Source: Paenibacillus guangzhouensis (lineage in GTDB: Bacteria; Bacillota; Bacilli; Paenibacillales; Paenibacillaceae). From it: 64,000 nt of DNA. Below are positions 54,135-56,127 of this stretch, one piece after another. Numbering within the stretch: position 1 is the stretch's first letter; every line of letters begins with the position of its first letter. The position numbers and the translations under genes were made by a program. The stretch spans positions 1,116,001 through 1,180,000 of the forward strand of contig NZ_CP045293.1 of the NCBI RefSeq assembly GCF_009363075.1, in the 5' to 3' direction. The notes beneath the pieces are model-generated. The model worked only from the letters and a program-made list of their open reading frames with translations. It had not been told where the DNA came from and did no database searches.

Positions 54135-54156
54135 CATCATAAAGTGCACAACCAAG

Positions 54157-54187
54157 CCGATGCGAGCCATATCGCATCGGTTTTTTT
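54157..54187 (+). terminator. intrinsic terminator after dapA
   Basis: CCGATGCGA (54157-54165) with TCGCATCGG (54172-54180), perfect 9 bp, 6-nt loop, then seven Ts. Confidence 0.93.
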
Positions 54188-54220: not shown

Positions 54221-54250
54221 TTGTGTTTTCCTAAATTAATCATGTATAAT
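54221..54250 (+). promoter_or_regulatory. sigma-A-like promoter of the RNase J gene
   Basis: TTGTGT (54221-54226), 18-nt spacer, TATAAT (54245-54250). The -10 is perfect and the -35 is poor. It predicts a long leader of about 195 nt before the gene, within the 316-base gap 54135-54450. Confidence 0.6.
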
Positions 54251-54350
54251 GATAAAAAGTGACTGGGTGCGGTATTTTTTAGAAAACGCTTATTGTCTTC
54301 AGTGACACGGAATCGTTTTCTTTTGGTAAGTTTTACTTTTGGATTTTGTC

Positions 54351-54429
54351 CGGATAAGAGAATATGTTATCGGATGATCTTCGGATGATTATGGAAAGTT
54401 GTTCCGAAGGGTTAATTTCCTGCGGATAA
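54351..54429 (+). repeat. four CGGATRA repeats in the RNase J leader
   Basis: CGGATAA at 54351-54357, CGGATGA at 54371-54377, CGGATGA at 54382-54388 and CGGATAA at 54423-54429. A CTTCGGA/TCCGAAG stem (from about 54379 to 54409) overlaps the third copy. All lie in the untranslated leader. They could be RNA-binding or autoregulatory sites (inference). Confidence 0.5.
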
Positions 54430-54450
54430 TTATAGGAGGGTTAGATTCAC

Positions 54451-56127
54451 TTGTCGAAAAAGAACAACACGGATAAAATAACGATTTTTGCGCTTGGGGG
54501 CGTTGGTGAAATTGGCAAGAACATGTACGTCGTACAATATGGTAATGATATTGTTGTCGTAGATGCTGGCTTAAAGTTCCCTGAGGAAGATATGCTCGGA
54601 ATTGATATTGTCATTCCAGATATCTCTTATTTAACAGAGAATCGCGATAAGGTACGCGGGATTCTTGTAACTCACGGTCATGAAGACCACATTGGTGGAT
54701 TGCCGTACGTATTGAAGCATTTGAATGTACCGATCTACGGTACCAAACTCACACTTGGATTGATTGAGAGCAAACTGAAAGAAGCGAACTTGTTAGGTGA
54801 AACGAAACGAATTCTGATCAATGCAGATTCGGTCGTCCAAATGGGCAGCATTCAAGCAACCTTCTTCCGTACGAATCATAGTATTCCGGATTCCGTTGGT
54901 GTATGCCTCGAGACACCAGAAGGCACAGTAGTACATACAGGTGACTTCAAATTTGATCATACCCCAGTCAATGGTCAATATGCAGATCTACATCGTATGG
55001 CAGAAATCGGACGTAAGGGCGTTATTGCCCTATTATCGGATAGTACCAACGCAGAACGTCCAGGATTCACTCCTTCAGAGAGTAATGTAGGGAAGAATCT
55101 GGAAGATATTTTCCGCAAAGCTGAGCAACGTGTCGTTGTTGCTACATTTGCATCGAATATTCATCGCGTGCAGCAAGTCATTGATGCAGCGGTTGCGACG
55201 AATCGTAAATTAACGGTTATTGGTCGCAGTATGGTTAACGTTGTGACCATCGCTTCGGAATTAGGGTATTTGCATATTCCAGACGGCATGCTGATTGAGC
55301 CGGAAGAAGTGAACAAGATGGCAGCCGATCGCGTTGTTATCCTCTCTACGGGTAGCCAAGGTGAGCCGATGTCTGCGTTAACGCGTATGGCTCGCAATAC
55401 ACATCGGAAGATCGATATTCTGCCTGGGGATACCGTGATTATCGCAGCAACACCAATTCCAGGTAATGAGAAATATGTTGGACGAACTGTGGATGAATTG
55501 TTCCGATTAGGCGCTCATGTTATCTATGGCGGTTCGACGACAGGCGTTCACGTATCTGGTCATGGTAGCCAGGAAGAATTGAAATTAATGCTGAATTTGA
55601 TTAAACCGAAATTCTTCATTCCAATTCACGGTGAATATCGTATGCTTCGCCAACATGCATTACTTGGAGAGCAAGTGGGTATCGAGAGCGAGAACATTTT
55701 CATTGTTGATATTGGTGAGACGATTGAGATTCAGAACGGTACTGCTCGCAAAGCGGGTAAAGTACCTTCGGGTAACGTTCTGATCGACGGCTTAGGCGTC
55801 GGTGATGTAGGTAACATCGTATTGAGAGATCGTAAGTTGCTCTCCCAAGATGGTATCTTGGTTGTTGTCGTTACGTTAAGCAAACAAGATGGAACGATCT
55901 TGTCTGGTCCAGATATCATCTCAAGAGGATTCGTCTATGTCCGTGAATCCGAAGGACTTTTGGATGAAGCGAATCGGATCGTAACGAATACACTTCACAA
56001 ATTAATGAATGAGAATGTTAACGAATGGGCGTCACTCAAGACGAATGTCAAAGATGCGCTTGGACGTTTCCTATATGAGCAAACACGTCGTAGACCGATG
56101 ATTTTGCCGATTATCATGGAAGTTTAA
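54451..56127 (+). CDS. rnjB: ribonuclease J
   Basis: A metallo-beta-lactamase/beta-CASP RNase of 558 residues that acts as 5'-3' exo- and endonuclease in mRNA decay and rRNA processing. The metal motif H-x-H-x-D-H is complete in 'VTHGHEDHIGG'; 'HTGDFKFDHTP', 'VHVSGHGSQEELKLM' and 'IPIHGEYRML' follow. By position (dapA-rnj-tepA) it is the rnjB (RNase J2) gene, but B. subtilis J2 has lost some of these residues. The TTG start is fixed by TAGGAGGG. Confidence 0.93.
   Translation: MSKKNNTDKITIFALGGVGEIGKNMYVVQYGNDIVVVDAGLKFPEEDMLGIDIVIPDISYLTENRDKVRGILVTHGHEDHIGGLPYVLKHLNVPIYGTKLTLGLIESKLKEANLLGETKRILINADSVVQMGSIQATFFRTNHSIPDSVGVCLETPEGTVVHTGDFKFDHTPVNGQYADLHRMAEIGRKGVIALLSDSTNAERPGFTPSESNVGKNLEDIFRKAEQRVVVATFASNIHRVQQVIDAAVATNRKLTVIGRSMVNVVTIASELGYLHIPDGMLIEPEEVNKMAADRVVILSTGSQGEPMSALTRMARNTHRKIDILPGDTVIIAATPIPGNEKYVGRTVDELFRLGAHVIYGGSTTGVHVSGHGSQEELKLMLNLIKPKFFIPIHGEYRMLRQHALLGEQVGIESENIFIVDIGETIEIQNGTARKAGKVPSGNVLIDGLGVGDVGNIVLRDRKLLSQDGILVVVVTLSKQDGTILSGPDIISRGFVYVRESEGLLDEANRIVTNTLHKLMNENVNEWASLKTNVKDALGRFLYEQTRRRPMILPIIMEV

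Follow-up and report, generated by a model that had tools for sequence, protein, structure and literature searches.

A conserved box at the predicted 5' end of RNase J messages in Bacilli and a cluster of CGGATRA repeats in the rnj leader of Paenibacillus guangzhouensis

Autoregulation has been described for RNases III, E and Y in the accessible portions of PMC4419217, PMC3997798 and PMC10303841, and the accessible portions of the open-licence literature on RNase autoregulation yielded no leader element for rnj, the gene of RNase J. Among the closest described systems is the 5' UTR of E. coli rne, in which the leader of the message of a decay-initiating RNase senses the level of the enzyme (PMC10303841 and PMC3997798, as excerpted). 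The rne element is a stem-loop, whereas the rnj element described here is a linear box, located where transcription is predicted to start (+1), and a conserved stem-loop was not found for it; the enzymes themselves are unrelated, and for rnj the feedback is a proposal. The message of B. subtilis rny, which encodes RNase Y, is likewise an RNase message that is limited, through cleavage in its 5' UTR and open reading frame, with trimming attributed to RNase J1 (PMC10303841, as excerpted). That case concerns another enzyme and another gene, and the excerpts of PMC10303841 make no mention of a terminal sequence box.

A further comparison is with decay from the 5' end by BsRppH and RNase J, which needs an unpaired 5' end with G at position 2 (PMC4419217 and PMC3997798, in excerpt); B. 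subtilis RppH, which opens 5' ends for RNase J, prefers a purine at position 3 (PMC4419217, in excerpt). If transcription began at the second A of the rnj box, the resulting AGUGA start would have G at position 2. Position 3 would however be U rather than the preferred purine, and a preference for two bases leaves the 16 conserved bases of the box unexplained. A predicted 5'-end box in the message of a 5'-end-dependent nuclease, shared by 11 families and found almost solely before rnj among the sites read, makes RNase J feedback directly testable.

The rnj gene, its promoter and the box at +1

The window analysed in this study, a 64,000-nt stretch of the P. guangzhouensis genome (contig NZ_CP045293.1, positions 1,116,001 to 1,180,000), contains a leader with four CGGATRA repeats that belongs to an RNase J gene. 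This gene, rnj (54451–56127, + strand), has a TTG start and encodes a protein of 558 residues that scored 701.5 bits against TIGR00649 (cut-off 400), passing this profile of RNase J family beta-CASP ribonucleases, and 810.9 against the RnjA exception model NF047419, under its cut-off of 820. The gene order around the leader is asd-dapG-dapA-rnj-ClpP-like-ylzJ-like-ftsK/spoIIIE. The products of rnj and dapA lie above profile cut-offs and the ClpP-like protein scores below its own, while the genes that we take to be asd, dapG, ylzJ-like and ftsK/spoIIIE were named from their translations. A terminator-like hairpin (54154–54183, + strand) sits 3' of dapA, between it and rnj, and the Shine-Dalgarno sequence of rnj is AGGAGG (54434–54439, + strand).

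A putative rnj promoter, composed of TTGTGT (54221–54226) and TATAAT (54245–54250) on the + strand, is conserved across regions upstream of rnj; a simple promoter scan made no call for it, the −35 hexamer falling outside its rule. The +1 box, AAGTGACTGGGTGCGG (54257–54272, + strand), follows just behind the −10, where the transcript is predicted to begin. Our sample for comparison comprised 210 regions upstream of rnj and its paralogues, including one rnj region from 117 of the 118 family genomes searched (G015 was left out, its hit not being listed); L120 is outside the sample, and one species may occur twice in it. The rnj leaders are otherwise dissimilar, and agree at the promoter and directly after it, at AAGTGACTGGGTGCGG. 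The box was exact in 70 of the 117 family rnj regions; with variants included, 116 of them had it 6–7 nt behind the −10, a count obtained with a search pattern that was widened after misses of a narrower first one (107/117). The lone exception, L038, has AAGAGACGGTGTGCGG. The distance between box and −10 was 6 nt in 145 and 7 nt in 37 of 182 regions, with 5–8 nt allowed; these are the sequences used from a set of 239, in which 32 had no anchor and the remainder were too short. A conservation profile of 60 non-redundant regions took AGTG[AG] behind a −10-like site as its anchor, which makes positions +2 to +6 and the −10 conserved by construction, so that other positions alone count: there, A was found at +1 in 52, G at +10 in 56 and G at +15 in 59 of the 60 regions.

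The 14-base core of the box has one exact copy in the genome of the window, and with up to two mismatches there were 20 matches, the exact copy included, versus 14 in the control. The box also precedes nine RNase J paralogues that are 74–77% identical. The RNase J paralogues of greater distance that we read lack it, and this holds for that of the window's own genome too. Named carriers include Paenibacillus, Cohnella, Saccharibacillus and Aneurinibacillus, with a degenerate form in Brevibacillus and Laceyella. The initial annotation had proposed that the leader carries cis-acting control by way of its CGGATRA repeats. Conservation supports control in cis, and it does so through the +1 box rather than through the repeats; judged from sequence, this short conserved stretch, where the rnj message is predicted to start, is a likely candidate control site.

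Occurrence of the box across the class

The class-wide search used the pattern TATAAT-N4-9-AAGTGAYTGG-N1-4-CGG, which was written from the family leaders and a few others and hence represents no independent discovery for those. It matched 68 of 398 genomes of the class, with one site in each, and was not matched in the other 330; the reversed control gave 1. In a phylum-wide draw 7 of 398 genomes matched, all of them from the window's own family (control 1), and there were no matches in the 382 genomes of this draw that lie outside the class. We read 43 of the 68 match sites: every one of the 32 that lie outside the family, and 11 of the 36 within it. An RNase J gene lay downstream on the same strand at 42 of these sites (31/32 outside the family and 11/11 inside), with the RNase J protein match beginning 68–392 nt after the −10, and only L267 had no RNase J match. 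The association of the box with rnj is thus shown to be nearly exclusive among the sites read. The box stands before rnj in 11 families, the window's own and ten others (f6, f16, f21, f23, f28, f30, f33, f45, f46 and f53), the class of which is Bacilli by their named members; labels such as Alicyclobacillus-like, used below, follow likeness to named loci (L103, L091 and L063).

The box also resembles a stretch of 23S rRNA (GAGCACTGATTGGGTGCGG), which it might mimic in competing for a shared ligand. At three loci the identity with the organism's own 23S rRNA is 12 of 14 bases, and in G013 an unbroken run of 13 bases, TGATTGGGTGCGG, is common to the leader box and the organism's 23S. A match of 12/14 bases at some place in 23S would nevertheless have a chance of ~1%, on a rough estimate, and several variants were compared; moreover, leader variant and 23S did not track each other consistently in the 7 genomes, of 16, that had a comparable 23S stretch. 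Mimicry was dropped as unsupported. We consider it very improbable, and the likeness, including that of TGATTGGGTGCGG in G013, is probably a coincidence. At L233, the organism's own 23S rRNA reads CTGATTGGGTGCGG on the − strand at ~1501–1514, with 12 of 14 bases identical to the core of the rnj box.

Downstream of the box the leaders, which are mostly 76–380 nt long, contain a variable spacer and then, in many cases, a second block (CGACGTCCAA, ATCGTCGTCAA or CTACAACTGAATA) that adjoins the Shine-Dalgarno sequence on its 5' side. A loose pattern made of typed variants found the second block in 68 of the 117 family regions and in none of the three members of the window's genus, where the CGGATRA region occupies its place. 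This suggests, without proving, that the repeats replaced the second block in this genus. Other clades have unrelated inserts in the stretch where the genus has CGGATRA.

Structure tests and the possible action of the box

A long-range helix joining the +1 box to the block before the Shine-Dalgarno sequence was convincing by eye in several registers, and was rejected as a permutation test opposed it. In 51 representative leaders (of 74 short ones), the mean pairing energy of the box with its own block was −7.70 kcal/mol versus −8.25 kcal/mol with permuted partners, and 9878 of 10,000 permutations were at or below the leaders' own value. Since permuted partners pair at least as well, no structure supports action of the box at the RNA level over the whole set. 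The RNAalifold consensus of the 51 representative leaders was empty in two alignments, and hence a conserved stem-loop of the rne kind was not found in them. Run by group, RNAalifold returned a stem for the 4 Alicyclobacillus-like sequences. For the 11 sequences of g6 it gave a local hairpin in which a gain from covariation was absent, for the 12 Cohnella-like sequences a weak stem with an unfavourable covariation term, and for the other three of the six groups next to nothing. Pairing of AGUGA with UCACU and of UGGUG with CAUCA is possible in the Alicyclobacillus-like leaders, by eye and with RNAalifold. Rfam gave no matches in the window at the gathering threshold and none at E ≤ 1 in eight rnj loci.

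Two smaller points concern the box region. In the Alicyclobacillus-like leaders L254–L257 there is a possible 5'-terminal helix, AGUGA-c-UGGUG / CAUCA-UCACU, that would enclose the hairpin CUUUGAAUUUCAAAG, which is changed in L257. Translation of a leaderless peptide from the GTG of the box was considered and discarded, as by eye the lengths of the frames are very different and the GTG is lost in some leaders.

The location of the box at the predicted +1, its occurrence at one gene, its lack of dyad symmetry and the entry of the nuclease from the 5' end are together best read as an RNA 5'-end feedback signal. Our preferred reading, to which we assign a probability of roughly 0.45, is that a 5'-end box controls rnj through RNase J feedback and is followed by a variable module that holds the CGGATRA repeats in the window's genus. 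In outline, rnj would be transcribed from its own conserved promoter, and its message would begin with the sequence-specific box AAGUGAYUGG(G)NGCGG, which would most likely serve, at the RNA level, as a signal for recognition of the 5' end or entry there, and through this signal RNase J activity would limit its own message. The leader between the box and the Shine-Dalgarno sequence would be a variable module, and in the genus, where it holds CGGATRA, the repeats might tune translation or decay as arms of the hairpins H1, H2 or H3 (described below) beside the Shine-Dalgarno sequence. We infer the transcription start, the action of the box as RNA, RNase J as the agent and the action of the repeats through hairpins. 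It is more doubtful that Bacilli have an rnj-specific 5'-terminal RNA box, anchored at +1, by which a 5'-to-3' exonuclease senses its own level, together with a replaceable second module before the Shine-Dalgarno sequence that was taken over by CGGAU repeats in the genus.

The main rival to an RNA 5'-end signal is that the +1 box is a DNA operator, at which a transcription factor positioned over the start site would control rnj transcription. An operator at +1 fits the box positions equally, the distance to the −10 being fixed, and it is in keeping with the failure to find covarying RNA structure. However, AAGTGACTGGGTGCGG has no dyad symmetry by eye, and one pattern match per matching genome would imply a regulator dedicated to a single gene; on this evidence we regard an operator as unlikely.

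The CGGATRA cluster

The repeats lie between the dapA terminator-like hairpin and the rnj TTG start (54451), and the four copies reported in the initial annotation are all present there on the + strand: copy 1, CGGATAA (54351–54357); copy 2, CGGATGA (54371–54377; CGGATCA in the congener G001); copy 3, CGGATGA (54382–54388; CGGATTA in G001, which has one additional CGGATCA copy); and copy 4, CGGATAA (54423–54429), which ends 4 nt 5' of the Shine-Dalgarno sequence. A fifth CGGATAA, at 54470–54476, falls among the first rnj codons and reads CGGAGAA in the congener G002.

None of 5000 dinucleotide-shuffled versions of the 196-nt leader had three or more copies of CGGATRA. As the motif was chosen after the sequence was seen, a fair test of chance must cover any comparable heptamer: at least four copies of some heptamer with one two-fold degenerate position were reached in 705 of 5000 leader shuffles, and of such a heptamer with at least three fixed G/C positions in 18 of 5000, while among 652 real tiles of 196 nt cut from the window 5 reached four, tiles overlapping the rnj leader included. 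The cluster is therefore unusual by the stricter count, as had been claimed, but not astronomically so. The genome-wide count that had been suggested as a check is less clear. Triples with gaps of up to 30 nt are rare, occurring in two places (the rnj leader and a response-regulator-like ORF; reversed-pattern control 0), whereas pairs are common, at 29 versus 4 with the reversed pattern, an abundance that the common codon run GCG-GAT-GAA might explain.

Among the 210 regions, more than two exact CGGATRA copies were found in the window and G002 only, with scoring restricted to the last 300 nt in regions where no box was found. The three genomes of the genus have 4 (window), 4 (G002) and 2 exact copies among 5 CGGAT (G001), the remaining 114 of the 117 family rnj leaders have at most one copy, and two-copy regions outside the genus number 2 of 210 (L108 and L116). 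The RNase J paralogue of the window's genome has no cluster and a single CGGATGA 264 nt before its start. Conservation of the repeats in rnj leaders, which the initial annotation had made a test of its proposal, thus fails outside the genus among the leaders read, and the best reading of the cluster is a genus-specific insert in the rnj leader. Against 40 relatives the leader matched G002 at 92% and part of G001 at 78%, other matches being short and weak. An origin of the insert as a mobile repeat was rejected, because in its own genome the matches other than itself were two, both short and weak, with E values of 0.05 and 0.58.

Possibly, the cluster is neutral, a lineage-specific insert of repeats derived from chance and slippage, which would be compatible with a functional +1 box. 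Its restriction to the genus is consistent with this, as are the unrelated inserts at the corresponding stretch in other clades, the post hoc chance of 18/5000 and the copy that G001 gained within a tandem unit of ~12 nt, TTTTTCGGATCA. Neutrality is harder to reconcile with the CGGAT core, which is aligned at all four sites across the three congeners though other stretches of the leader have changed. We rate it as a serious possibility at somewhat under even odds, and for the cluster taken alone a role in hairpins is about as likely as neutrality.

Those hairpins are predicted around the repeats. H1 (54350–54373, + strand; CCGGATAA / TTATCGG) involves copy 1 and the first bases of copy 2, is identical in all three genus members and is predicted to be paired. 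A possible H2 (54379–54409, + strand) was found by eye and joins CTTCGGA (54379–54385) to TCCGAAG (54403–54409); it has 7 pairs in the window, with one C-G to U-G change in G001, and is absent from minimum-energy folds. H3 (54404–54425, + strand; CCG-A-AGGG / TCCT-G-CGG), whose 3' arm includes the start of copy 4, appeared in the sub-leader folds of all three genus genomes with its sequence kept. H2 and H3 are mutually exclusive: TCCGAAG could pair with CTTCGGA at copy 3 or else, in a shifted register, with CCTGCGG at copy 4, so that the direct repeats would compete for it. The Shine-Dalgarno sequence had 4 of its 6 bases paired at a probability above 0.85 in the folds of the window and G002, and all below 0.6 in G001. 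The window leader folded no better than its shuffles (z −1.17, 25/200), and among the three close sequences there was no real covariation in the hairpins. From these three sequences, the repeats may supply the arms of small hairpins, some of them mutually exclusive, located 5' of the Shine-Dalgarno sequence.

The GGA cores of the repeats bring to mind sites for a CsrA-type RNA-binding protein, which would repress rnj translation near the Shine-Dalgarno sequence. The genome has a csrA gene (PF02599, 82.5 bits), copy 4 lies within 4 nt of the Shine-Dalgarno sequence, and the repeat cores read GGAU, as in the CsrA SELEX consensus RUACARGGAUGU given in the accessible part of PMC7652899. In all four copies, however, GGA is preceded by C and that in turn by a base other than A, which agrees with neither ARGGAU nor ANGGA; most bases of the copies are predicted to be paired in the window rather than to present ANGGA in a hairpin loop, and the cluster is limited to one genus. 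CsrA binding therefore seems improbable to us.

Other hairpin-forming sequences occur in these leaders. In the window a hairpin, AGAAAACG...CGTTTTCT (54281–54321), lies 5' of the repeats. In G002 the inner part of this hairpin has a different sequence that is still able to pair, and in G001 the hairpin is absent. Three regions from other Paenibacillus (L061, L071 and L097) have repeated hairpin-like units of their own (ACGAAGC...GCTTCG) upstream of rnj, and repeat-bearing inserts in the rnj leader thus seem to have arisen more than once.
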